Part shown: positions 5,965-32,275 of the stretch, one piece after another | Layout of the letters: the number at the start of each line of letters is the position of its first letter | How positions within the stretch are numbered: the first letter of the stretch is position 1 | Source: Pseudomonadota bacterium | GTDB lineage: Bacteria; Pseudomonadota; Gammaproteobacteria; Acidiferrobacterales; Acidiferrobacteraceae | Direction of reading: 5' to 3' | Assembly: GCA_021797365.1 (NCBI GenBank) | Contig: JAJZZU010000001.1 | Coordinates: 1 to 37,399 of the forward strand | DNA: 37,399 nt | Position numbers and translations under genes: made by a program | The notes under the pieces: generated by a model | Databases searched by the model: none | Told to the model about the DNA's origin: nothing | Seen by the model: only the letters and a program-made list of their open reading frames with translations

Positions 5965-6215
5965 TTAATGTGAGTTCCTTGCACAGTCCGGCGTAGCCAA
6001 GCTTTTTCTCGCCACGCTCGTAGCGTTCCTTCTGCAACGCCAACGCGTGGTTGTATACGAACCGGCATGACCCGGCGAAGCGGCGCATCTGGCGCTGCTG
6101 GTCGCCGTTGGGTTTTAGCTCATACTTGAAGGCCTGGAGACGAACCATAACCCTTATTATAGGCTAAAATCACGCTATCCATCCCCGCCCTGAACGACGG
6201 GGCTTTTCGCGTGAT
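5965..6215 (-). mobile_element. Left end and first ~60 codons of a TnpB element (truncated)
   Basis: From ATG 6148 the protein starts MVRLQAFKYELKPNGDQQ and is nearly identical over about 60 residues to the intact TnpB at 22362-23597, up to CKELT. There the homology ends (about 5970) and the C39-like region begins. Upstream, the hairpin CCCCG/CGGGG (6183-6202) followed by GGATAGCG on the minus strand matches the left end of the intact copy. All catalytic residues are lost, so this is a dead copy of the same insertion-sequence family. Confidence 0.8.
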
Positions 6216-9352: not shown

Positions 9353-9933
9353 TCAAGGCTATTCCTATCCAGATTTGCGCTGGCGGATCCGCGTGCAACC
9401 TGACCCCGTTTGGCCGGTCTTTGCGCCGGTTCCTGCTCACAAAAACCGATCTGTTGCCCAGCGGCACCTGGATGAGTGGCGGTTGCTGGACGTTGGCTGC
9501 CGCGCTGCAGACCTGGTCAAACGGTGCGCTGTCTCTGTATACGGTGTGGGGTCGCGGCATGGGCCATGCGGCCCACAATGTCCCTCAGCATGTGGTCGCC
9601 GGCGGCCGTTTCTCAGATGGGCGCCTCTTGGGTGACGGGCGCCTCTTGTGCCTGGACGGGGATGGACTGGCCTGGGACACGGAATTGCTCACGAAAATGC
9701 GGTGGATCGAGGGCGTCAAGAACCCTACGCTGATGCCGTTCGACCAGGCGGCGCTCGAGTCCGTTGGCATCGAGTGCTACCCGCTCGCCGTGGCTACCTT
9801 GATTCGGTCGTTGCGCACAACCTTTGGCGAATGGTCGTTGGATCAGGTCTTGGCAGATTTCCCTTTGAGGCAAACGGCGTGCGCCAAAATCCTGAAAAAC
9901 AAGGTGGGCGCTGCGTCCTTGCCGGAACCTTGA
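9349..9933 (+). CDS. Predicted papain-like cysteine hydrolase (CTG start)
   Basis: No ATG, GTG or TTG lies upstream of base 9421 in this frame, but CTG 9349 has AGGA 7 nt upstream and overlaps the preceding TGA as CTGA, the same coupling as the ATGA overlaps elsewhere in the window. That start gives 194 residues. The sequence GTWMSGGCWTLAAAL (Cys46) followed by QHVVAGG (His81) and LCLDGDG (Asp103) has the Cys-helix, then His, then Asp order of papain-like or transglutaminase-like hydrolases. This is a pattern match, not a family identification. It leads a set of genes that ends with an ATP-grasp enzyme, a pairing known from peptide-ligation pathways. Confidence 0.5.
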   Translation: MIKAIPIQICAGGSACNLTPFGRSLRRFLLTKTDLLPSGTWMSGGCWTLAAALQTWSNGALSLYTVWGRGMGHAAHNVPQHVVAGGRFSDGRLLGDGRLLCLDGDGLAWDTELLTKMRWIEGVKNPTLMPFDQAALESVGIECYPLAVATLIRSLRTTFGEWSLDQVLADFPLRQTACAKILKNKVGAASLPEP

Positions 9934-12309: not shown

Positions 12310-12696
12310 TCAGATTGGAGAAGGTCTGTTGGGTTTTTTTGATGGGGACGCCCCAATCTCACACTTAATGCTTTTCACCTTTGCCAAGAACCCTGGCAGC
12401 ACCTTCTCCACGGTGTTCCATACGATCTGCATGTTCACGTTGATGTAGCCATGGATTAGGCGGTTACGCATGCCGGATATTTCACCCCATGGCACATCGC
12501 TATGTGCGATCTTTAGCGCGGAACTCAGTTTGGTCACTGCCTCGCCGATGATCTCGAGATTGCGAATCACGCCGTCTTGGACGAGATCGTCGGCCATAAA
12601 GTCCGACTTGCTTTTGCCGGCTACATAGCGGTGAATTTTATCAATGGCGCTTTGAATGTGTTCCAGGTAGTCCTGGTCGCGCAGATCCTTGCTCAT
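12310..12696 (-). CDS. hepT: HepT-type HEPN ribonuclease toxin
   Basis: DUF86/HepT family toxin, a small all-helical RNase that is neutralised by AMP addition from its MntA partner. The active-site motif RX4HXY is intact: R77-NRLI-H82-G-Y84, the tyrosine being the known AMPylation target in studied homologues. The 128 residues start at ATG 12696, overlapping the mntA stop codon (ATGA), so the antitoxin is translated first. The C-terminal tail is basic (SPSKKPNRP). It lies tail to tail with the ATP-grasp gene, 27 bp apart. Confidence 0.9.
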   Translation of the reverse strand: MSKDLRDQDYLEHIQSAIDKIHRYVAGKSKSDFMADDLVQDGVIRNLEIIGEAVTKLSSALKIAHSDVPWGEISGMRNRLIHGYINVNMQIVWNTVEKVLPGFLAKVKSIKCEIGASPSKKPNRPSPI

Positions 12697-13921: not shown

Positions 13922-15369
13922 GGGCGCGGCGACGCGGACGCCTTGGGTTGGGCCGCGGGCTTTTGCCACTGGGCGGCGAGGGCGGCCAGATGGGCGACCG
14001 GCAGGCACTTGTGCATAGTCTGGGCCTCCGCCACGCCCATCCTGGCCCGCACGATGACCGTCTCGAGGTTGGTGACCATGCGTCCAGCCACGTCCGCGCA
14101 GATCCCGGAGACCTCGGGGAGCGGCAACCCGGTCTTGCGCGCCAGGATAGCCGGCAGGTCGGCCGTCAGGATCTGGCGCTGCGTGCGCAGCCCGCACAAG
14201 GGCGTTGCGAGTTCGGACTGGGGATTGGGCGCCAGATCGAAGAGGGGAGTGGGCACCCACCGGCCCTCGGGGCCGACCATCCACTCGAAGTTGCGCAGAT
14301 GGTTGTCGGTGATCGAGGCACCGGACTGGAAGATGGCGCGCCGCAGCATCTCGTGCCTGTCGGCCTGCCCGTCCTCGCCGCCTAGGTTTTTGGCCAGAGC
14401 AAGCAGGTCTTGGTAATCGGCGGACGCCATGGCGCCGCTATGGGGCAGGCCAAGCAGCGTCAGGGCGCTGACGCGATGCGCGCGGTGGGTGGCTGATCGG
14501 TCGTATCGTTCGATCAGCAAGACGTCCACACCGGAGTCCGGCAGGGTCACCACGCGCGAGAAAGGCGCATCGATCCCGGAGGCGCGCGCCAGCTCGAGCA
14601 TGGCATGCTCGACGCGGACGGCGTTGACCGGGTCCCCGGGGCGATTGAACTTGGCAATCCAGTATTTCCCCTCGAACTTCAGGAAGGCCTTGGGCTGGGC
14701 GCCGCCGGCGCTGGTCGTGGAGTACAGGCGCTCTTCATCGACGGGCGACAGGGCCCGTGACCCGTCTAGCGTCAGCATCCGGGTCATCTCCTGCATCTGG
14801 GAACGTATGGCCTGTTCGCGCACCACCTCCAGGTAGCGGATGCCGTCGACAGGTTTTTTGTTGGCATTGTCGGCCGTGTGGCCTGTCGCCGGAGTGGCCC
14901 CCCCAGCCAGTGCCACCGCCGGACCGCGCACTGCGTCCAGATCCTTCAGATTGCTGATGTACCGCTCGGGCGTGGCCCGCCCGGCGCGCTCGAAGAGCAG
15001 CCCGGAATGGGCGCGCTGCCCAAACCAGTCGATCAAGGCCGCGGGCGTGGCGCGCGACAGTTCCGGAAAGTGGCGCCACAGCACCTGCATGCCGAAATGC
15101 CCGGGCAGGGCGTCATGGAAGGCGCCCGGTATGTCGCCCGTTCCGCCGTGAGGACGGAAGACCGCCCCGGGCAGGTGCTGGCGATAATTCATATTGACCG
15201 GATCGAGGGCCGGCCCGTCGTAGTCGGAGAAATAGGTGAACAGCCCCGCGCTGGGGCCTTGTGTCGTGAGGAACCCGGCCGGCCGCCAGCGGCGGCCCCG
15301 GCTATCGGCGGGGGCTTTGGGGTTCCAGAGGCTGACGATCAGCCCTTGAGAGATGGCGGGTGCGTTCAT
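13918..15369 (-). CDS. hipA: HipA-like serine/threonine kinase toxin
   Basis: HipA-family protein kinase, toxin of HipBA modules; characterised members phosphorylate a translation factor such as glutamyl-tRNA synthetase and induce dormancy. In the 483 residues, GGAQPK near residue 222 is the phosphate-binding motif, ITDNHLRN near 353 is the catalytic loop with its Asp, and DLAP near 377 is the metal-binding motif, so it looks active. A long insertion with ATGHTADNANKKP precedes the GGAQPK motif, and the C terminus is Ala/Pro-rich. It starts 5 bp after the hipB stop and is co-transcribed with it. Confidence 0.85.
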   Translation of the reverse strand: MNAPAISQGLIVSLWNPKAPADSRGRRWRPAGFLTTQGPSAGLFTYFSDYDGPALDPVNMNYRQHLPGAVFRPHGGTGDIPGAFHDALPGHFGMQVLWRHFPELSRATPAALIDWFGQRAHSGLLFERAGRATPERYISNLKDLDAVRGPAVALAGGATPATGHTADNANKKPVDGIRYLEVVREQAIRSQMQEMTRMLTLDGSRALSPVDEERLYSTTSAGGAQPKAFLKFEGKYWIAKFNRPGDPVNAVRVEHAMLELARASGIDAPFSRVVTLPDSGVDVLLIERYDRSATHRAHRVSALTLLGLPHSGAMASADYQDLLALAKNLGGEDGQADRHEMLRRAIFQSGASITDNHLRNFEWMVGPEGRWVPTPLFDLAPNPQSELATPLCGLRTQRQILTADLPAILARKTGLPLPEVSGICADVAGRMVTNLETVIVRARMGVAEAQTMHKCLPVAHLAALAAQWQKPAAQPKASASPRP

Positions 15370-15374
15370 GGCTT

Positions 15375-16013
15375 TTATTCTCCACTGGATGGCGCATTGC
15401 CGCCCGCAGGGGCGGCGGGAGGTTCATTGTCGGCCGACCAGCCATTCGGCCGGCAATGACGGCTGGTGAGACTGGCGATCTCGGTGATCTCTTGCAGCCG
15501 TTCGCGCTTGGCGAGGAAGGGGTCCGGACCGATGACGGGGCCACCCTCGTCCGGAATCGGGACGGATGGCGTCGCGGATTCCTCCAGGTCGTCGTCCTCC
15601 GGATCCCGCGGCGTATGGCCGTTGCGCTGATACCACTCCATCACCGACGCCATTTGGCGTTCGATGTCGGACGCGATGTCGCCCTGGCGCCGCTGCATGA
15701 TTTCCTGGGCCTCCTGTGTTTGCGCGCGGGCCAGGGGTTCCGTCGGGTCGAGCAACGCCAGCATTCCGGTCAGAACCGAGAGATCGTGTCGGCGGTCGAG
15801 ATAGAGACGGCGCCAGGCGCCGATCCAGCACCCCAGCGGCACGCGGGGGTCGCCGGACTCCATGCGGATATAGGTCGACCGGGAGACACCGATCCGTCGC
15901 GCCATCTCCTCCTGCGACACAGCCACCAGGTTGGCGCGGTAGACCCGCAGGCTCTCCCCGATCTGGCGGAGGGCGGTTTCCCCGTCTCCCTGAAGAATGG
16001 CAGTAAAGTTCAT
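15375..16013 (-). CDS. hipB: HipB-like XRE antitoxin/repressor with long C-terminal tail
   Basis: Helix-turn-helix protein (residues about 16-60, SQEEMARRIGVSRSTYIRME) that is expected to bind the operon promoter and restrain HipA. ATG 16013 is preferred because TATACT (16050-16055) lies upstream in the longer frame, leaving a short leader; alternative starts would be inside the promoter. At 212 residues it is more than twice the length of classical HipB: a helical and then acidic, Pro-rich tail follows. Close to the C terminus the DNA carries a 14-bp inverted repeat (15424-15459) related to the insert in the CRISPR-like repeats. Confidence 0.8.
   Translation of the reverse strand: MNFTAILQGDGETALRQIGESLRVYRANLVAVSQEEMARRIGVSRSTYIRMESGDPRVPLGCWIGAWRRLYLDRRHDLSVLTGMLALLDPTEPLARAQTQEAQEIMQRRQGDIASDIERQMASVMEWYQRNGHTPRDPEDDDLEESATPSVPIPDEGGPVIGPDPFLAKRERLQEITEIASLTSRHCRPNGWSADNEPPAAPAGGNAPSSGE
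15424..15459. repeat. Inverted repeat related to the insert in the CRISPR-like array
   Basis: TCATTGTCGGCCGA and TCGGCCGGCAATGA face each other with 8 nt between them and one mismatch. The right arm plus neighbouring CCAT matches the 21-nt insert in repeats 3 and 4 of the array (ATTCGGCC, then two bases, then CAATGA). It is inside the hipB coding tail, so part of the similarity may be chance. Confidence 0.4.
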
Positions 16014-16049
16014 CCTTTTGCGCTCCGATGCGTCAGATACGATAAGGGA

Positions 16050-16055
16050 AGTATA
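16050..16055 (-). promoter_or_regulatory. -10 box of the hipBA promoter
   Basis: TATACT on the minus strand lies 36 bp upstream of the hipB start; no strong -35 box is seen. A short inverted repeat, CGAGA/TCTCG (16084-16100), upstream could be an operator. Confidence 0.4.
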
Positions 16056-16293
16056 GATCAGAAGTGCCTGCTGGGACATATTGCGAGACGATTGTTCTCG
16101 TGGGATACAGGTCGGAAGGAGGTCTGGCAGCGGATTGCTCTGGTTGAATGGTGTTAGTGGCGCGGAGACCGCCTGGGGTGGCATTTCGGTATGCACCGTC
16201 CTAATATGTTATACAAACCGGCGAGAAAAATAAGGAAAATAGCGTGAATTCACAGAAAATTGCGGCCGATACGGCACGCGGGCGGGCTGTATC

Positions 16294-19200
16294 ATGAGCG
16301 TATCGTCCCCCAAGTCTTGGGCTACCTATTGGCGGGATACCCTGATCGACGCGGATCTTTCCGCAATGGAAGATCGAATCAACGAGGCGAGCATCCTGCC
16401 ACAGGAGAGTATCCAAAGCGCTGTCCTTCCGATGGAAGTTGTGCGCAAACTGTTTGACGAGGTGCGAGGAAATGCCGCACCAGCCGTCGGCGGCGATGAT
16501 GCCGCTGAGCGTGCGCGGAAACAGCAGCCGGTGGCCGTTTTTGTGGCCCCCTTCTTGTTTAGCCCAGCGCACAATCACCAGTATCGGCGTGGCGCGGAAT
16601 ACGTCATTCCGGTCTGGGTCCCGGCCGTTCTTGCGCCTGACGGTTCCCTGAAGGCGGCACCAGACAGAAAGCCCTGGGTCCCTCGCAAATATCTGGAGCC
16701 GACCACCAATGATTTCGTGTTGGGCGCGATCGAGGAGGTGGACAAGAGGCTCGATACGGTTCGCTGTCCGGATCTCAATGGCGAAGAAGAGGGCGCGGCA
16801 TGGGGTAAATGGCTCGAGTATGCCGCAAATCTGCTGCCGCCGGACTGGCACAAAACCATGGAGGACGCCGAATATGTCTGTGCGGGATCTTTTGTCGCGC
16901 CCTCGTCGGACAAGGGCGTCGCAGCGAACCTCATAAGCCTCTACAACGACATCACACGCAGAGACAAGGCGCCAAGTCTTTTTGCCGCGTATTGTCGTGT
17001 ACCAGACGCGGCCCCTTGCGGGCTCAGATCGCCGATTGAGCAACTGGTTGCCGGCGCGGAACGGCATCTTGCGCATCCGTCCCCTCATTACCCTTTGTCA
17101 CCATCGCAACGTGAAACGCTCGTTCATATCCTGGATGCCAAGGAAGGGGACATTTTGGCGGTCAACGGTCCGCCGGGGACTGGGAAAACCACGCTGTTGC
17201 ATGACTTTTGGGCGAGCCTCTGGGTGAGCGCCGCATTGCATAGCAAGAACGGTCGGCCACCCGTTCTCGTGCTCTCGTCAACGAACAACCAGGCCGTAAC
17301 GAATATCCTCGACAGTCTCGCCCAGGTGGGCGGCGACATGGGCCGTTGGTTGCCCGCGCCATTGCGCGGGTTTGGTGTGTATCTCAGCAATAATCAGGAA
17401 AAGGTCAAGGCGGCCCTGGAGCGAGGTCACCATCACGTCAATAGAGGCGGCGGGATTTTTAAGGAGATGGAGGCGTGGCCGTATATTGATGAGGGTGATC
17501 GGGTCTTCTGCGAACAGGCCAGCCGGTTTGTCGCCGACGCAGGGCGCACAGCTCCTGTGCAGACTGTTTCGGAAGCGTGCGACATGCTGCGCGAAGACAT
17601 GCTCAGTATCGCCGGTGAGATCAGAAGCCTGACCGAATCATCGCAGTTCCTGTATAGGATCCTCAGCAAATATCCACAAGGCCTGGATCAGGCCGTGTCG
17701 GAGGCAAGACTGCATTACGAAGAGTGCGTCGCCGCCCTCAAGAAACGGAGCCATACCCAGGACGAGTGGCGCGCTTATATTGCGCATGAGTCGTTCATTC
17801 TCGGTCTGTTTGGGTTTCTCCCGTTCGTTCGCGCCAAGAGGTCTGCGTCCGATCACTTGTTTCTCGGGAGAATGGGGCTTACCGGAGATCCGTGGGAGGG
17901 TTTTGACCTTCCCAGGCAGCGTCTGGATGTGGAGTCTGCTATCAAGCGTGAGATCGGCAGGGCCGAGACGCTGTGCGAAAAGGCGAAGCAGGCCCTCGAT
18001 GCCATTGTTCGCGACAAGGTAGACGCCCAGGATAGCGATGCGAGAATCGCAAAAGCGATCAACGGCGGAACCTGGACGCATTGGGTCAGGCCGGAAAAGC
18101 GCGGCCAGGTCGATGTGCGGTATCTCATGGAGGCTGACCATCCCCACAACCCTGTGGTCTGGGCCGACACGACCATGCGCCTTGCCCTGTTTCGTGCCGC
18201 CGTGCATTACTGGGAGGGGCGATGGCTCATTGACGCGCGTGCGGCGCTCGCTGATCGCGAGCAACGCAAAAAGGACCGCGATCGCCAAGATCCCGCCTCC
18301 CGCAAAAAAACATGGCAGCGATATGCGATGTTGACACCTTGCATCGTGGTGACTCTGCATAGCGGCCCAGGGTTTTTTGATTGCTTCGAGAAGGGGCACC
18401 CTGGTTACCATTACGATGGGATTGACTGGCTTGTTCTCGACGAGAGCGGGCAGGTCTCACCGGAGGTGGCCGGACCCATGCTGGCGCTTGCGCGGCGCGC
18501 CATCGCGGTTGGCGATCGCCAGCAGATCAGCCCCGTTCATGCCGTGCCAGCCCCGATCGACATGGGGAATGCCTGGCGGACACTCGCGATCAACACCAGT
18601 ACCGACGATCGCGCCTACACGGACCTTGCGGAAAAATCGCTGATGTCGGCCAGCGGTTCGTTGTTGGGTATCGCGCAGCGCCGGACGGCGTTTTTCAAGG
18701 GGAGAGGGTACGAGCCCGGGTTTTTCCTATCTGAACACAGGCGTTGCGTGGATCCGATCATCGCCTACTGCAATGAACTGGCCTACAACGGCCGCATACA
18801 GCCGAAGAGGGGCGCTGGGCAGTTTGCGACTCCTTATCCATATCCGCACATGGGTTATGCCCACATCTTTGGTGAGGGCGAGCGCAAAGGCGGCAGTCGC
18901 GCCAATGTGGTTGAGGCGGACACGATCGCGCGATGGCTCAAGGATAACAGCAAGACCATCATAGATTTCTACGGTGGCGGAACCCTGTCGGACCATGTCA
19001 GCATCATCACGCCGTTCAAGGCGCAAGAGAAACAGCTGCGCACGGCGATGCGGCGCGAGGGTATCGAGGTCGAGAAGTGCGGTACTGTCCACAGTATGCA
19101 GGGTGCGGAACGCCACATTGTTTTGCTGTCTCCTGCGTATGGGGACGGGGACAATATCGGTTTTCTTGATGGTAGCGTGGAGATGCTGAATGTCGCCGTT

Positions 19201-19866
19201 TCCCGCGCACAAGACAGCTTTCTCGTGTTCGGGAACATGAGTCTGTTTCAGCCCGCCCGAGGAGGCGGTCAGAGCCCGTCCCAGCTTTTGGCGCGGCATC
19301 TCTTTTCCTCTCCGGAAAACGAGCTTGCGGTGCAGCCGGTTCGCGAGTCCCTGTTGCGCGGTAACCGCAACAATATCGCGACACGGCATGCCTCTGTTGG
19401 TGAGCATGACAGCTTGCTGAAAGAGTGTTTTCGGAACGCCAGGGAGCGGGTTGTTGTCTCTTCTCCCTATATCAGCGTAAGGGCCTTGAGGGCGACTGGC
19501 ATTACCGAAGACATCAGGGGTGCCGTGGCGCGCGGGATCCCCGTGCTTGTCTACGCGAGGCGTCCGCCGTCGGATCCCAGGAACGCGAACGCCAAAAAAG
19601 CCCATCAAGACGGTCTCGATCTTTTGCGTGAGGCGGGCGCCAAAGTAAGCATCGCCGAGCGGCTTCATTCCAAGATGCTGATACAGGATTCGGATCTCCT
19701 GGTTGAGGGGTCATTCAACTGGTTTTCGGCGGAACGTGTTGACCCTGGACGGCAGAACCTGGATACGTCGATTGCCTATCGCGGGCCGGACGTGGCCGCC
19801 TGGATCGAAAAGAGCCTGCCGTTGTTGCGCAACCTCGCATCGGACGAGGGCAAGGCCGCCGCCTAA
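16294..19866 (+). CDS. SF1 helicase fused to a PLD-family nuclease
   Basis: A 1190-residue protein starting at ATG 16294. Superfamily 1 (Upf1-like) helicase motifs are all visible: Walker A GPPGTGKTT (292-300), a long inserted helical region, motif II LVLDESGQ (714-720), motif III VGDRQQISPV (739-748), motif Va GTVHSMQGAE (930-939) and motif VI NVAVSRAQ (966-973). The C-terminal 170 residues form a phospholipase D-like domain with HSKMLIQDSDLLVEGSFNW (H1125, K1127), one HKD-type site, so a dimer would be needed for catalysis. Helicase-nuclease fusions of this sort occur in defence islands, and this one sits next to the CRISPR-like array and HipBA. DNA or RNA as substrate cannot be decided from sequence. 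Confidence 0.8.
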   Translation: MSVSSPKSWATYWRDTLIDADLSAMEDRINEASILPQESIQSAVLPMEVVRKLFDEVRGNAAPAVGGDDAAERARKQQPVAVFVAPFLFSPAHNHQYRRGAEYVIPVWVPAVLAPDGSLKAAPDRKPWVPRKYLEPTTNDFVLGAIEEVDKRLDTVRCPDLNGEEEGAAWGKWLEYAANLLPPDWHKTMEDAEYVCAGSFVAPSSDKGVAANLISLYNDITRRDKAPSLFAAYCRVPDAAPCGLRSPIEQLVAGAERHLAHPSPHYPLSPSQRETLVHILDAKEGDILAVNGPPGTGKTTLLHDFWASLWVSAALHSKNGRPPVLVLSSTNNQAVTNILDSLAQVGGDMGRWLPAPLRGFGVYLSNNQEKVKAALERGHHHVNRGGGIFKEMEAWPYIDEGDRVFCEQASRFVADAGRTAPVQTVSEACDMLREDMLSIAGEIRSLTESSQFLYRILSKYPQGLDQAVSEARLHYEECVAALKKRSHTQDEWRAYIAHESFILGLFGFLPFVRAKRSASDHLFLGRMGLTGDPWEGFDLPRQRLDVESAIKREIGRAETLCEKAKQALDAIVRDKVDAQDSDARIAKAINGGTWTHWVRPEKRGQVDVRYLMEADHPHNPVVWADTTMRLALFRAAVHYWEGRWLIDARAALADREQRKKDRDRQDPASRKKTWQRYAMLTPCIVVTLHSGPGFFDCFEKGHPGYHYDGIDWLVLDESGQVSPEVAGPMLALARRAIAVGDRQQISPVHAVPAPIDMGNAWRTLAINTSTDDRAYTDLAEKSLMSASGSLLGIAQRRTAFFKGRGYEPGFFLSEHRRCVDPIIAYCNELAYNGRIQPKRGAGQFATPYPYPHMGYAHIFGEGERKGGSRANVVEADTIARWLKDNSKTIIDFYGGGTLSDHVSIITPFKAQEKQLRTAMRREGIEVEKCGTVHSMQGAERHIVLLSPAYGDGDNIGFLDGSVEMLNVAVSRAQDSFLVFGNMSLFQPARGGGQSPSQLLARHLFSSPENELAVQPVRESLLRGNRNNIATRHASVGEHDSLLKECFRNARERVVVSSPYISVRALRATGITEDIRGAVARGIPVLVYARRPPSDPRNANAKKAHQDGLDLLREAGAKVSIAERLHSKMLIQDSDLLVEGSFNWFSAERVDPGRQNLDTSIAYRGPDVAAWIEKSLPLLRNLASDEGKAAA

Positions 19867-19907: not shown

Positions 19908-20043
19908 TTGATTTGTGCGACATAGTATGCGTATATTATGCTGTATGGACGGCAAAAGGATTGGTAGATACAAGGTTTTACTTGTAGACAAAACCGTCAA
20001 GCGGCACAGAAAAGTGCAGTAAATCAGTTCTTTAACAAGAAGA
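19908..20043 (+). promoter_or_regulatory. Leader and promoter of the CRISPR-like array
   Basis: TTGATT (19908-19913) and TATATT (19932-19937) with 18 bp between them form a plausible promoter. The following hundred bases are AT-richer than the surroundings and reach the first repeat at 20044, as a CRISPR leader does. It also contains a 25-codon ORF (19945-20022). Confidence 0.5.
19945..20022 (+). CDS. Possible basic micropeptide (25 residues) in the array leader
   Basis: ATG 19945 starts 8 nt after the -10 box, so a transcript would be nearly leaderless. The product MDGKRIGRYKVLLVDKTVKR plus five residues has nine Lys/Arg. No ribosome site and no family; it may be chance in an AT-rich leader. 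Confidence 0.2.
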   Translation: MDGKRIGRYKVLLVDKTVKRHRKVQ

Positions 20044-20179
20044 GTGTGCCCTGCGCAAGCAGGGATGAAAGGTTAGGGTGGCAGTACGGTGACGCCCGGG
20101 GTGTGTGTGCCCTGCGCAAGCAGGGATGAAAGGGTCCACGTCGTAAATCGACCAGACCCGCAAGTGTGTGCCCTGCGCA

Positions 20180-20200
20180 TAGGCCATTCGGCCTACAATG
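20180..20200 (+). repeat. 21-nt palindromic insert in the loop of CRISPR repeat 3
   Basis: A 6-bp stem TAGGCC/GGCCTA around ATTC, followed by CAATG, lies between GCA and A of the GCAA loop. The surrounding repeat is otherwise perfect, and the outer CCCTGC/GCAGGG stem can still form, giving a longer stacked hairpin. Confidence 0.85.
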
Positions 20201-20261
20201 AGCAGGGATGAAAGGGGCCAAGCGAAAGCGGAGCCCGGCCCTCACCCGTGTGCCCTGCGCA

Positions 20262-20282
20262 TAGGCCATTCGGCCTACAATG
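20262..20282 (+). repeat. Identical 21-nt insert in the loop of CRISPR repeat 4
   Basis: All 21 bases and the insertion point are the same as in repeat 3, 82 nt away. Two identical insertions in two successive repeats need either two targeted events or copying from one repeat to another. Confidence 0.85.
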
Positions 20283-20300
20283 AGCAGGGGTGAAAGGTTG

Positions 20301-20329
20301 TTGACGCCTAGCGCCGGCGGCGCTATAGT
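20301..20329 (+). promoter_or_regulatory. Strong promoter with operator-like palindrome, for the C4-like RNA and ant operon
   Basis: TTGACG (20301-20306), 17 bp, TATAGT (20324-20329). The spacer carries a perfect inverted repeat, TAGCGCC and GGCGCTA (20309-20325) with 3 nt between, overlapping the -10 box. This suggests a repressor site. It begins 4 bp after the last CRISPR-type repeat. Confidence 0.7.
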
Positions 20330-20335
20330 TTTTAC

Positions 20336-20516
20336 AGGTGCTGAACACACCAGTTTCGTAGGCGGATACCGCGCCCGTCAGCTTTGCGGTTTTTTTGTGC
20401 CTACGATTTAAGGCCGGGTGGCGCGCAGCCATACAAGACTCTCGCAAGAGAGGAAATCTGCGGGCGGACCTACGACCGTGTTCAAGCACCCGGCCGCCTC
20501 CGTGAACGGGAGGCGA
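20336..20516 (+). ncRNA. Structured RNA resembling the C4 antisense RNA of P1/P4-type phages
   Basis: The stretch between promoter and icd-like ORF folds into nested hairpins: CGTAGGC/GCCTACG (20357-20405) around a terminator-like stem ACCGC/GCGGT followed by seven T; a 9-bp stem (20412-20420 with 20487-20495) enclosing CTCTC-GCAA-GAGAG (20439-20452); and CGCCTCC/GGAGGCG (20495-20515). CCTACGAT (20400-20407) and CCTACGA (20469-20475) are complementary to ATCGTAGG (20529-20536), which includes the ribosome site of the next ORF. In phage P1 and P7, C4 RNA represses icd-ant by exactly this kind of pairing. The match is to arrangement and mechanism; no alignment was run. Confidence 0.6.
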
Positions 20517-20547: not shown

Positions 20548-20817
20548 ATGGCTGCTCAAGCTCTTTCTCGCGTCCCCGCGCTGCGGGACACTATCGAATC
20601 CATCAATGGTTTAGCGGCAGACGGGCTGGCGGATATCGCCGCGATCGCCCGCCTTGCCCTGTTTCGCCTCGAAGCCCTCAAGGGTGATACAGACCTTAAG
20701 GATATCGCTCAAGCCTTGCGCGCGATAAGCGACCAAGCGGCGGAGACCCAAGACAGCATTGACGGCGAAACCGAGCACGCCGGTTGCCGCCTCACCGGCA
20801 TGAGGAGGGTGTCATGA
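20548..20817 (+). CDS. icd-like small ORF upstream of the antirepressor
   Basis: An 89-residue mostly helical protein starting at ATG 20548 after GTAGGAGG. It overlaps the ant start (ATGA at 20814-20817), matching the P1 icd-ant arrangement in which translation of the small ORF is needed for antirepressor synthesis. The peptide itself has no recognised motif; a C-terminal Cys and basic end (GCRLTGMRRVS) are noted. Confidence 0.6.
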   Translation: MAAQALSRVPALRDTIESINGLAADGLADIAAIARLALFRLEALKGDTDLKDIAQALRAISDQAAETQDSIDGETEHAGCRLTGMRRVS

Positions 20818-21620
20818 ACGCCCTCATCCCGGTGGTCGAGCGCCCCATCAACGGCGAGCCCATCCAAACCGTCAATGCGCGCGACCTGCATGCGTTCCTC
20901 GAGGTCGGCAAAGACTTCTCCAACTGGATTAAGGACCGCATTGCGCAGTATTATTTCGTGGAAAATCAAGATTTTATAATTTTCGCCAATTTTGGCGAAA
21001 ATTCTGGTCGGGGAAGGCCCGCAAAGGAATACGCCCTCACCCTCGACATGGCCAAGGAACTCTCCATGGTCGAGCGTAACGCCCGGGGCAAGGAGGCGCG
21101 GTTGTACTTCATCGCCTGCGAGCGTCGCGCCAAGGCCGCGGCCGCCGCGGCCCGGGTGGACGTCACGGCGGTCCTGTCCGACCCGGTCCACCTGCGCACG
21201 CTGCTCCTGTCCTACACGGAGAAGGTCCTGGCTCTCGAGGCAAAGGTCCAGGAGCAGGCGCCTAAGGCGCAGTTTTACGACGCCGTCACCCGATCCGTGA
21301 ACGACCAGAGCATCCAGGAGGTCGCCAAGGTACTGGGCACCGGGCCCAATCGTTTGTTCCGTTTTCTGCGGAAGGAGGGGTTGCTTATGCAGGGCAGCAA
21401 CCTACCTTACCAGCGGTATCTGGACGCCGGGTATTTCCGTGTGGTCGAGGGGAACTACCGCGACTCCCATGGCGGGGAGCGCACCTACACGCGCACGCTC
21501 GTAACCGGCAAGGGTTTTGTCTATATCCAGGGCCGCCTTCAGGGGCAGGCCGACGGCTTCATGCAGGCGGGGCCGGCGAACGCCACCAACAGCGGGGTGT
21601 CGGACATGGTGCTCGTCTAA
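20814..21620 (+). CDS. ant: Phage antirepressor protein (AntA + KilAC domains)
   Basis: A 268-residue antirepressor. The N-terminal AntA domain (residues 10-90) shows NARDLHAFLEVGKDFSNWI and, later, EYALTLDMAKELSMVERNARGKEARLYF in two parts; the C-terminal KilAC domain has QIQEV-type SIQEVAKVLGTGPNRLFRFLR and TLVTGKGFVYIQ. Such proteins free a prophage or plasmid from repression. ATG 20814 is preferred (GAGGAGG at 20802-20808). Together with the C4-like RNA and icd-like ORF this forms a complete immunity-type module, although no structural phage genes are present. A perfect 26-bp palindrome lies inside the coding sequence (20978-21003). Confidence 0.9.
   Translation: MNALIPVVERPINGEPIQTVNARDLHAFLEVGKDFSNWIKDRIAQYYFVENQDFIIFANFGENSGRGRPAKEYALTLDMAKELSMVERNARGKEARLYFIACERRAKAAAAAARVDVTAVLSDPVHLRTLLLSYTEKVLALEAKVQEQAPKAQFYDAVTRSVNDQSIQEVAKVLGTGPNRLFRFLRKEGLLMQGSNLPYQRYLDAGYFRVVEGNYRDSHGGERTYTRTLVTGKGFVYIQGRLQGQADGFMQAGPANATNSGVSDMVLV
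20978..21003. repeat. Perfect 26-bp palindrome inside ant
   Basis: AATTTTCGCCAA, two T, then its exact complement TTGGCGAAAATT. It encodes part of the AntA domain and is far more AT-rich than the rest of the gene. It may be an operator or an RNA hairpin. Confidence 0.6.
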
Positions 21621-22375: not shown

Positions 22376-23597
22376 CCTGAGTCGCTTCGGTGGGTTCCTG
22401 TTTCATCGAGCGGTCTAACGGCACCCTCTCTCCGCAGGCTAATAAGCGATGTCCTCGCTCTAAAATATTGATCGCGCCGACCAGATCGGCATTGTCCTCG
22501 AAGCCGCATTCCACGCACGCGAACCGCGCCTGTGTCTTGCGATTGTCGGCGCTTATGTGGCCACAGCACGGGCACGTCCGGCTGGTGTACTGCGGCGGCA
22601 CGGCGACGAGCCAGCCGCCGTTCCACGCCAGCTTGTAGTCCAGTTGGCGGCGGAACTCGAACCAGCCCTGGTCGAGGATGGACTTGTTCAGGCCGGACTT
22701 GGCCCGGACGTTTCTTCCCGGTTTCTCGGTTGTGCCGGCCGCCGATTGGGACATATTCCGCACCTGCAAGTCCTCGAGACATACGATCGCGTGGTTTTGG
22801 CTGATCTGTGTCGAGGCTTTGTGCAGGAAGTCGCGGCGGGCGTTACCGATCCGGGTATGGATACGCTGGACGCGGGCCTTCGCCTTCTTCCAGTTGTTGC
22901 TGAACTTCTGTTTGCGGCTCATGGCCCGTTGATAACGAGCGAGGCGCTGCTGGTGTTTCTTGAAGCTGTTGAGGGGTTCGATGAAGTGGCCATCGCTTAG
23001 GGTGGCGAAGCGAATGATCCCCATGTCGATGCCGACAATGCTGGAGGCAGGGTGGACGGGTTCGGCCACATGGCGCTCGGTCTGGATGCTGATGAACCAC
23101 TTGCCCGCCTTCAGGCTCACGGTGACATTCTTCACCGTGCCCAGCACCTCCCGGCTGTTGCGATAACGCAACCACCCGAGTTTGGGCAGGAACACCCGAT
23201 CGTTGGCCTGATCGAGCTTGATCTGCTTCGGATCGGGATAGCGAAAGCGGTCGCGTTGGCCCTTCTTCTTGAAACACGGGAAGTCGGCGTGTTTGGCGAA
23301 GAAGTTGGCGTAGGCCCGCTCCAAGTCCTTGAGCGTCTGCTGCAGCGGGTGAACGGGCGCGTCCGCAAGCCAGGCCGCCGCGCGGCCGGATGGCAGCGGG
23401 GCGCCATTGCGCCACGCGGTGAGTTCCTTGCACAGTCCGGCGTAGCCAAGCCTCTTCTCGCCACGCTCGTAGCGTTTCTTCTGTAAAGCCAGCGCCTCAT
23501 TGAACACGACACGGCATGACCCGGCGAAGCGGCGCATCTGGCGCTGCTGGTCGCCGTTGGGTTTTAGCTCATACTTGAAGGCTTGGAGGCGCTGCAT
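22362..23597 (-). CDS. tnpB: TnpB RNA-guided nuclease
   Basis: A 411-residue protein from ATG 23597 (GTG 23615 would add six residues lying over a TATACT box). It has the N-terminal wedge/REC helices beginning MQRLQAFKYELKPNGDQQ, and a RuvC-like nuclease with all three acidic residues: D191 in GIDMGIIRFATL, E275 in VCLEDLQVRN and D371 in DNADLVGAINI. The zinc finger CPCC...CVEC is at 342-364. It should therefore be an active RNA-guided DNA endonuclease, which in studied systems helps the element stay in place by cutting empty sites. The C-terminal tail is Gln/Ala/Thr-rich. Confidence 0.9.
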   Translation of the reverse strand: MQRLQAFKYELKPNGDQQRQMRRFAGSCRVVFNEALALQKKRYERGEKRLGYAGLCKELTAWRNGAPLPSGRAAAWLADAPVHPLQQTLKDLERAYANFFAKHADFPCFKKKGQRDRFRYPDPKQIKLDQANDRVFLPKLGWLRYRNSREVLGTVKNVTVSLKAGKWFISIQTERHVAEPVHPASSIVGIDMGIIRFATLSDGHFIEPLNSFKKHQQRLARYQRAMSRKQKFSNNWKKAKARVQRIHTRIGNARRDFLHKASTQISQNHAIVCLEDLQVRNMSQSAAGTTEKPGRNVRAKSGLNKSILDQGWFEFRRQLDYKLAWNGGWLVAVPPQYTSRTCPCCGHISADNRKTQARFACVECGFEDNADLVGAINILERGHRLLACGERVPLDRSMKQEPTEATQAQAA

Positions 23598-30833: not shown

Positions 30834-31988
30834 TCACGCCTCGTCCGCCCTCTCCGTGGTCTTTCGGTGCCGCTCATCATCCTCCGCATGCAAATAGATG
30901 CTCGTTGTGTCGAGTGAGGCATGCCGCAGGTTCTTCTGGATGAACCGAAGATCGGTACCGGCGTCCGCCTGATGGGTGGCCGCGGTGTGCCGCAGCCAGT
31001 GGGTTGAGGCGCGCCGGAGGAGGGCGGCCCCCGTCGGGTCTTCGGCCTCGATGGCCTCCGCAGCCCGGCGCATGACTTCTTTGACGATCAGGTAGATGGC
31101 CGACGGCGTCAGGGGCCGGTCCGCTGACCCCCCCACGGGCAGCACGAGCGGCACATCGGCATCATCCGCCCCTGGGGCCTCGTGCAAGCCGTAAAGCCGC
31201 CTGTAGCGCCCCAGATCGGCCAGAAGACCGTCGCTCACGGGGACCTCTCCGGTCACGCCGCCCTTGCCAGTCACGCGCAGCCACCAGCGCCCACGGCGCT
31301 GCACCAGGTCCCCCGTCCGGGCTTGCGCGGCCTCGGACGCCCGTAGGCCGGTGCCGTAGAGCAGACGGAACAACCAGCGCACCCGTTCGTGGTGCTGTTG
31401 CTCGCGGGTCGTACCCGTCGGTAAGGTGTCGATGAAGGCCATCAGGCGGTTCCATAGGGCCTGATCCAAATACCGCTCCTGGACGGGCCTGGCCCCACGC
31501 GTCTTGCGGCTCTTGCGCCGGCGCAACGCTAGTGGGTTGCCGGCGAGGTAGCCCGCAGCCGTGAGGTAGGCGAACAGGCCGGAGAGGATGCCCAGGGCGT
31601 GCCGGATGGATGCCGGCGAGAGTGGCCCCTCAAATAGGCGCCGGTCACCGCCCGTCCGCGGGCGACTCGGATCCACCCAGTCGCCGGCCGGGTGCGCCAG
31701 GAACGCCTCGTAGATCAGCAGGTCCTCGCGAGTGAGACTGGAGAGTGGTTTGTCCAGCGCTTGTGCCGCCCACAACATCAACCGCACCACCTCTTTCCGA
31801 TAGGCGCGCAAGGTATGGGGCGAGTCCGCGTACTCGGCCAACCACGCGCGCACGGCCTCGAGGTCAGTGTCGGCGGCGATCTGGCGGTGCGCGCCCAGGG
31901 CGCGGTTCGTCCCCCGGCGTCCGTCCAGGCGGGTGGACGCGGCAGGTAAATCTTGAGCAGTCTGGGAAATAAGTTGGTCGTGAGTCAT
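30834..31988 (-). CDS. Tyrosine recombinase/integrase
   Basis: A 384-residue phage-integrase family recombinase. The N-terminal SAM-like DNA-binding domain covers residues 42-150 (SPHTLRAYRKEVVRLMLWA), the catalytic domain 170-375 with R216 (LYGTGLRASEA), K242 (TGKGG), H330-x2-R333 (THWLRHTAA), H356 (LRHASLDTT) and the nucleophile Y365 (SIYLHAED). All are present, so it should be active. It could integrate the element, resolve multimers or, as Rci does for PilV, move segments; no att site or shufflon is visible nearby. ATG 31988 overlaps the stop of the MNT gene. Confidence 0.85.
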   Translation of the reverse strand: MTHDQLISQTAQDLPAASTRLDGRRGTNRALGAHRQIAADTDLEAVRAWLAEYADSPHTLRAYRKEVVRLMLWAAQALDKPLSSLTREDLLIYEAFLAHPAGDWVDPSRPRTGGDRRLFEGPLSPASIRHALGILSGLFAYLTAAGYLAGNPLALRRRKSRKTRGARPVQERYLDQALWNRLMAFIDTLPTGTTREQQHHERVRWLFRLLYGTGLRASEAAQARTGDLVQRRGRWWLRVTGKGGVTGEVPVSDGLLADLGRYRRLYGLHEAPGADDADVPLVLPVGGSADRPLTPSAIYLIVKEVMRRAAEAIEAEDPTGAALLRRASTHWLRHTAATHQADAGTDLRFIQKNLRHASLDTTSIYLHAEDDERHRKTTERADEA

Positions 31989-32275
31989 ATGACGCGCGCT
32001 TCTGCGAGCACCTTGGCCCGAAAGCTGTCCGGCAAGGCGTTTGGAGTCAGAACATCCACAGACACACCGAGGAGTTCACCGAGTTCGTGAGAAATAGCGC
32101 CAATATCGAGCAGGGTTGTCTCGGACGTTGGGTCGACCAGGATATCGAGATCACTGTCGTCTGTGTCTTGTCCCTGCAGGACAGAACCAAATACGCGGGC
32201 ATTGCACGCGCGATGTGATTCGACCACGCGTCGAATGGCGGCACGGTTTAACGCGAGCGCGTCGGACGGTTTCAT
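31985..32275 (-). CDS. Orphan MNT-type nucleotidyltransferase (MntA-like)
   Basis: A 96-residue protein with G30-S31, D42-x-D44 (FGSVLQGQDTDDSDLDILVD in parts) and SVDVLTPNALP, thus catalytically complete. It resembles MntA at 12693-12983 along its whole length. No HepT gene follows; its stop codon overlaps the start of the integrase gene (ATGA). It might control the HepT-like protein at 21762-22283 or the recombinase, but both are speculation. Confidence 0.75.
   Translation of the reverse strand: MKPSDALALNRAAIRRVVESHRACNARVFGSVLQGQDTDDSDLDILVDPTSETTLLDIGAISHELGELLGVSVDVLTPNALPDSFRAKVLAEARVI

Follow-up and report, generated by a model that had tools for sequence, protein, structure and literature searches.

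Why should two of the four repeats in a small CRISPR array carry 21 nt more than the other two, inserted into the loop of the repeat hairpin, and where might these nucleotides have come from? The question arises from a locus in a 37,399-nt stretch of DNA from a Pseudomonadota bacterium, all of which is referred to here as the window.

An array with two repeat lengths and one spacer length

The array occupies positions 20044 to 20297 and comprises repeats of 29, 29, 50, and 50 nt (R1 to R4) separated by three spacers (S1 to S3; Table 1), thus displaying the direct repeats with a hairpin (6-bp stem) and the regular, unique spacers by which CRISPR arrays are recognized. R1 and R2 are identical 29-mers, and repeat comparison confirmed the observation, made in a preliminary description of this DNA, that both long repeats hold 21 extra bases, TAGGCCATTCGGCCTACAATG, between GCA and A (bases 14 and 15); the two inserts are identical. 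The long repeats had also been described as otherwise equal to the short ones, which is correct for R3 but not for R4, where one more change, A to G, is found at the first base past the stem. When the window was searched with the 26-nt core of the plain repeat, allowing up to three mismatches, two matches were obtained, compared to 0 in 100 shuffles.

All three spacers measured exactly 32 nt, as stated earlier, and this equality fits the proposal that a precise machinery built or kept the array, but it is silent on whether that machinery copied the 50-nt form. RNA folding yielded −12.2 kcal/mol for the 29-mer and −22.8 and −22.9 kcal/mol for the 50-mers, each predicted to form a single continuous hairpin, with additional pairing between the insert and two bases of the loop. 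The outer stem (6 bp) and the 8-nt handle are both preserved in the expanded repeat, in agreement with the initial impression of an intact stem and a longer hairpin.

Table 1. Positions of repeats, spacers, REP-like units, and putative flanking signals in the window
Feature	Positions	Strand	Remark
TG-type REP-like unit (minus-strand sequence, CATTGTGGGCCGCATGGCCCA) within ORF 9421–9933, in frame	9560–9580	−	28/79 exact copies
CC-type REP-like unit (minus-strand sequence, CATTGCCGGCCGAATGGCTGG), close to the 3′ terminus of ORF 15375–16196	15438–15458	−	3/79 exact copies
Promoter-like site TTGATT-18-TATATT, upstream of the array	19908–19937	+	Consensus match only
IHF-consensus match in AT-rich leader	20022–20034	+	Consensus match
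CRISPR repeat R1, 29 nt	20044–20072	+	
Spacer S1, 32 nt	20073–20104	+	Without convincing protospacer
CRISPR repeat R2, 29 nt, identical to R1	20105–20133	+	
Spacer S2, 32 nt	20134–20165	+	Without convincing protospacer
CRISPR repeat R3, 50 nt (29 nt plus loop unit of 21 nt)	20166–20215	+	
REP-like unit CATTGTAGGCCGAATGGCCTA (minus strand), R3 loop	20180–20200	−	
Spacer S3, 32 nt	20216–20247	+	Without convincing protospacer
CRISPR repeat R4, 50 nt, single substitution at the first base past the stem	20248–20297	+	
REP-like unit, R4 loop, identical to that of R3	20262–20282	−	
Terminator-like hairpin (20309–20325) and T-rich tail, directly past the array	20309–20335	+	Consensus match only

The left flank of the array is AT-rich (GC 0.38) and contains an IHF-consensus match 9 nt upstream of R1, one of three such matches in the window (0.97 expected). 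According to PMC6895254, type I-E and I-F leaders need IHF. Together with the promoter-like site upstream of the array and the terminator-like hairpin past R4, both consensus matches (Table 1), these signs indicate that the leader probably adjoins the first repeat on this side, which would make the 50-nt repeats the old (trailer) end of the array. A second promoter-like site overlaps the terminator-like hairpin 3′ of R4; a promoter suspected inside the insert (TACAAT) was absent from the sites returned by the promoter scan.

No Cas protein was detected among the 40 of 169 listed ORFs that were compared with Pfam, 10 of them also with PADLOC, and, as judged within this window, beyond which the element continues, the locus represents a 29/32-type mini-array without cas genes (orphan array). 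Its 29-nt repeat length and 8-nt handle fit both type I-E (PMC5965380) and type IV-A1 (PMC11519345). Spacers S1 to S3 gave no convincing protospacer match in plasmids, phages, or viral contigs, the viral scans permitting mismatches at every sixth position only. A match of S2 to a Comamonas plasmid rep gene (E = 4) was discarded, being absent from the matches of the 32-nt search.

The insert is one unit of a dispersed palindrome family

Our first lead came from the window itself. The three best window matches of the insert sum to 51, a value that none of 300 block shuffles attained; of the control hairpins, 1 of 103 forward ones (the site at 9560) and 2 of 103 reverse ones did. In addition, the overlapping words CGGCCNACAAT and CGGCCNNCAATG were the top gapped 5+5 words in the window after those of the CRISPR repeat, a ranking that serves as a lead only and that, by estimate, is unremarkable once the array copies are removed.

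Beyond the window, the insert proved to follow a family pattern, CATTG-NN-GGCC-GNAT-GGCC-NN. We found CATTGNNGGCCGNATGGC in 6 of 229 Gammaproteobacteria genomes (nine copies in genome G212 and a single one in each of the remaining five genomes; 0 in all with the reversed pattern as control), and within the gammaproteobacterial family of G212 it was present in 16 of 18 genomes (control, 0). Near-exact copies of the unit numbered 68 in G476 (a single contig of 3.4 Mb), 26 in G477, and 23 in G488. With two mismatches allowed, G212 gave 78 matches versus 38 for the reversed control, so that loose copies are uncountable and only near-exact ones were counted.

The unit is 21 nt long, with a 6-bp stem and a loop of 4, and several copies are arranged in 21-bp head-to-tail tandem, a spacing that identifies the insert as exactly one unit. 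Among 79 copies from fetched loci of G212, G476, and G480, the outer stem letters were CC/GG (n = 33), TG/CA (n = 32), TA/TA (n = 5), CG/CG (n = 2), CA/TG (n = 1), or others (n = 6); the stem letters covary, with mostly compensating changes. The exact 21-mer of the insert accounted for 4 of these 79 copies. Readings of the insert as an attC-like site or an IS605 end were dropped after inspection by eye.

Probable host and neighborhood of the array

The window encodes a T2SSF-like protein whose relatives in G480 and G488 (38% and 36%, respectively) are closer than the top-listed PLSDB match (28.9%). Relatives of this protein occur in 4 of the 18 family genomes, and a word-based protein search returned four close relatives among the best 7,997 candidates scored; PLSDB holds many distant ones. 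One database homologue, P0001, is at 98%. The presence of such relatives in the unit-bearing family suggests that the host probably belongs in or near the family of G212 and G476.

Several other features lie around the array. A 1,190-aa protein encoded at 16294–19866 (+) matches PADLOC MkoC (966 bits), and its gene, a putative defense gene adjoining the orphan array, ends about 180 bp upstream of R1. On the other side, an sRNA-Xcc1 match (RF02221, 68 bits) at 20412–20503 (+) separates the array from a gene for an AntA/KilAC antirepressor (20784–21620). A 173-nt direct repeat with 91% likeness between its copies (5970–6142 and 23419–23591) is situated at two TnpB-like (IS605 OrfB) genes, the first of which matched in its HTH domain only. 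A HepT-like ribonuclease (PF01934) and a separate nucleotidyltransferase-like ORF were also located (12310–12696 and 31985–32275, both on the minus strand).

Units lie beside Y1 transposase genes in a relative

Y1_Tnp (PF01797) was matched in 15 of the 18 family genomes, but it is common elsewhere, too, with matches in 5 of 14 controls. Specifically, G476 has 16 such matches, which we merged by hand into 12 loci (one of them below the Pfam cut-off, some with stops in the frame, and some mutual copies); for 10 of the 12, a unit is found no more than 1 kb away, for 8 no more than 100 bp, and for six only 2 to 5 bp. Random placement put a mean of 0.32 loci within 1 kb, and 0 of 2,000 placements reached the observed number.

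Palindromes beside Y1 transposase genes constitute the REP and RAYT arrangement (REPtrons; PMC3733652), and the location of the units in G476 appears similar to it. The same source describes REPs of the GTAG super-family as palindromes of 20 to 40 nt with a stem of mostly 6 to 9 bp, a range that includes the unit (21 nt, 6-bp stem). Many dispersed copies were found in the relatives G476, G477, and G488, and a Y1 gene, identified by Pfam match, lies beside the repeat in G476. As for the tag, the TA type of the unit contains GTAG, but its TAG falls in the stem; the other types read GTGG, GCCG, GCGG, or GCAG.

Further units in the window and an empty site

Two more units of the family are found in the window (Table 1). 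For ORF 9421–9933, which contains the first of these, a single homologue was found (P0006; 1 of 1,206 candidates); it is 90% identical and lacks seven residues at the position of the unit. The codon across the insertion point (A^TC, with the caret marking the point of insertion here and below) encodes Ile, and P0006, as read by eye, has Ile there. The 9560–9580 site therefore has an empty counterpart at the protein level, which fits a clean insertion of 21 nt. That this 18-of-21 match, lying in a reading frame, arose by chance was ruled out by its being an exact family unit. A further match at 14865 (CATTGTCGGCCGTGTGGCCTG) is matched exactly by 0 of the 79 fetched units; it may reflect chance or the decay of a unit. 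At 15425–15458, the second unit and an inverted half-unit (15425) make up a larger palindrome near the end of ORF 15375–16196.

Units prefer the tips of hairpins

In the relatives, units also occur in the loops of other units or palindromes, as in GGCC-GCA^T-GGCC, GGCC-GTA^T-GGCC, GGGC-GCA^T-GCCC, and GGCCGGGG-TG^GAC-CCCCGGCC. We quantified this on distinct sites derived from the 79 copies by collapsing or omitting tandems, counting same-flank copies once, and dropping copies at locus ends. Among 54 distinct single-unit sites, a set enriched for TA-type copies (the type most often at tips), the flanks formed a stem of at least 4 bp at 14 sites, compared to 9.1 to 9.3% of all positions, of at least 5 bp at 8 sites (2.9 to 3.0% of positions), and of at least 6 bp at 7 sites (1.0 to 1.1% of positions), leaving 47 sites without such a stem. 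Insertion exactly between the third and fourth base of a tetraloop with a 6-bp stem was seen at 5 of the 54 sites, three of which (L069, L084, and L087) may share descent, versus 0.05 to 0.08% of positions. Flank complementarity over 51 distinct sites exceeded that of all 1,000 flank-pair shuffles.

TA-type units were found at tips in 9 of 14 cases, 8 of these at the position after the third loop base, and 42 of 2,000 flank shuffles reached 9; this control is weak because the targets resemble each other, and we relied on the base rates instead. Tip insertion is a preference, not a rule. The earlier idea of a small palindromic element aimed at the tips of hairpins is supported as to the element (a dispersed family by Y1 genes, with an empty site and a second CRISPR-type loop, described below) and narrowed as to its targeting, given that 47 of 54 sites lie off the tips of stems of at least 6 bp. 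Five loci (L069, L084, L087, L090, and L092) display a nested-palindrome composite, in which CCCCGCC-type arms surround a TG unit with a TA unit in its loop.

A second CRISPR-type loop and searches for the repeat elsewhere

On the minus strand of G476, the exact 21-mer of the insert lies between bases 14 and 15 of a 29-nt repeat, GTGTGCCCCGCGTA^TGCGGGGATGAAAGA, and this expanded repeat is followed by a 32-nt spacer and then by a degenerate plain 29-nt repeat. Relative to the repeat, the unit points in the direction opposite to that in the window; with a palindromic target, both orientations at one point are expected of insertion at hairpin tips. CRISPR-type loci known to have a loop unit number two, the one in G476 having just two repeats, and a search of 57 genomes of the order returned G476 only. 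The exact 21-mer also occurs at non-CRISPR sites (L030, L078, and L079).

The search of plasmid and genome collections for the 29-mer and the 50-nt form that had been proposed as a check was run and gave no match. Specifically, BLAST found neither form of the repeat, nor the 21-mer, in plasmids or phages, all three were absent as exact patterns from viral contigs, the near-exact plain repeat had 0 matches in the genome-contig collection, and the plain repeat with up to three mismatches was present in 0 of 369 genomes of the class. Its 23-nt core was found in 1 of the 18 family genomes (G485), as two repeat-like words. These words, which end in GATGAAAGG and lie 81 bp apart (L080, G485:C53, 3860–3970), are possibly a decayed array and were left out of the comparison.

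A wide pattern scan of genome contigs for loop-expanded repeats yielded 19 loci and 0 loop-expanded repeats; for scale, the plain form of the pattern was present in 2 of 120 Pseudomonadota genomes. Four of the loci (L005, L007, L010, and L013) each consist of a truncated repeat joined to a complete one within an array, and the other fifteen have no CRISPR array within 70 nt on either side. The scan missed the G476 case because its pattern required G as the final base. Two viral matches to the pattern represent one shared stretch without adjoining repeats.

Origin of the expanded repeats

Taken together, we consider it highly likely that the locus is an orphan 29/32 mini-CRISPR array, similar to type I-E or IV-A and carried on a plasmid or integrative element, in which the loops of R3 and R4 hold a REP-like unit that was very probably moved by a Y1/RAYT transposase. 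The long repeats look like landing sites of a mobile palindrome rather than representatives of a new CRISPR class.

In mechanistic terms, we infer that a RAYT moves the unit, that the unit uses single-stranded loops, and that crRNA maturation tolerates the insert. The unit would insert without visible target duplication and would favor the loops of DNA hairpins, those of CRISPR repeats included. TnpAREP enzymes act on single-stranded DNA and recognize a hairpin with a tag (PMC8266576). Extrusion of a hairpin leaves its tip loop unpaired, and this single-strandedness would account for insertion at this point without duplication; such a loop would be a natural single-stranded target for an HUH enzyme, and a CRISPR repeat would supply the hairpin. 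Because landing between repeat bases 14 and 15 would interrupt neither the outer stem nor the 8-nt crRNA handle, the array can probably still be processed, and the insert is probably close to neutral.

The presence of the unit in two repeats may be accounted for by one insertion copied at spacer integration, by repeat conversion, or by two insertions. Work on type II systems, citing types I-E and I-B, indicates that a ruler counted from a motif inside the repeat fixes where the second integration takes place (PMC6895254); length added before the ruler anchor would be copied along, and a 50-nt repeat could therefore be copied whole. The plain repeats, however, adjoin the probable leader, so that copying requires a later loss within the leader repeat, conversion, or acquisition away from the leader, unless there were two insertions. 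Two separate insertions into R3 and R4, with no copying of an expanded repeat, are a real possibility, if one to which we give less than an even chance. They would agree with the position of the expanded repeats at the probable old end, where leader copying is not simple, and with the recurrence of the unit both in loops formed by its own copies and at the identical tip position of the CRISPR-type repeat in G476, but the two inserts are of the same variant, in the same orientation, and in neighboring repeats, and copying or conversion takes fewer insertions. A more far-reaching version of the preferred reading holds that a RAYT-driven REP unit lands in extruded loops with CRISPR repeats as recurrent targets, that acquisition copies the unit, and that crRNAs with longer 3′ hairpins still work; we advance it tentatively.

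It appears improbable that the nested positions were produced by template switching or hairpin recombination instead of HUH transposition. Units within units and 21-bp tandems could also form by replication slippage, but the protein-gene insertion with an empty site (9560) and the insertion into a CRISPR-type repeat unlike the unit both call for non-homologous insertion, and the six Y1 loci of G476 that nearly abut a unit likewise argue against this route.

We think it very unlikely that the loop extension is a functional part of the repeat kept by selection, either as a loop-expanded class or as the expanded processing or anti-processing signal suggested in the preliminary description. The preserved stem and handle, the continuous fold of insert and loop (−22.8 versus −12.2 kcal/mol), and the shared insert position in the G476 locus would all suit a function. 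The signal found no support, however, since plain and expanded repeats stand side by side in both CRISPR loci, and the class is opposed by the same coexistence as well as by the opposite orientations of the unit in the two loci, the occurrence of the same 21-mer at the three non-CRISPR sites, and the failure of the 19-locus scan to find a loop-expanded repeat (with a pattern that also missed G476). Finally, the idea that the palindrome is a chance or unrelated sequence or a misassembly, to which the finding of the array in this contig only might lend some credit, is hardly credible in view of the exact length, the exact 21-mer units in other genomes, the empty site at 9560, and the second CRISPR-type locus.

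Implications

With the landing of a REP-like unit, the puzzling architecture of the repeats would be explained and no new CRISPR class would be needed. Earlier work has already recorded REPs within other palindromes (PMC3733652); what seems novel is the combination, in that a REP-like unit occupies the loops of CRISPR repeats at two loci. At the level of titles and abstracts, we found no account in the literature of insertions, REP or MITE elements, or loop extensions in CRISPR repeats. Naturally loop-expanded repeats may serve as a natural experiment on the Cas1-Cas2 ruler and on the tolerance of Cas6 for a 21-bp loop insert. They would also define sharply where a REP-like element lands, namely after the third base of a hairpin tetraloop and before the fourth, which is useful because the spread of REPs is, according to PMC8266576, poorly understood. 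If copying at acquisition is true, CRISPR adaptation would be a way of multiplying a mobile palindrome. Arrays of this kind may be overlooked or broken up by CRISPR finders that assume uniform repeat length.

Comparison with known systems

IS1397 and IS621 are insertion sequences that target palindromes. Similarly, ISPpu9 targets a REP (PMC8450116). The present case resembles these three insertion sequences in having an element at a palindrome and differs from them in that the element, a unit of only 21 nt, has no coding capacity and has a CRISPR repeat as its target.

Like the orphan CRISPR arrays of plasmids described in PMC9071438, which are similar to types I-E and IV-A, our array is short, with 29-nt repeats, 32-nt spacers, a leader-like flank, and no Cas protein among the ORFs tested. 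In this comparison, two of four repeats with a mobile unit in the hairpin loop are found here alone.

The closest comparison is with REPs of the GTAG super-family (PMC3733652 and PMC8266576), with which the unit shares its size (21 nt), a covarying 6-bp stem, many dispersed copies, and adjoining Y1 genes. A location inside other palindromes is also shared, having been reported for GTAG-23 of T. roseum and for CGTC-1 dimers of H. neapolitanus (PMC3733652). In contrast to these REPs, the unit has a tag region of the form G-NN-G that lies partly within the stem (GTAG, GTGG, GCCG, and others), forms 21-bp head-to-tail copies, and occurs in the loops of CRISPR repeats.
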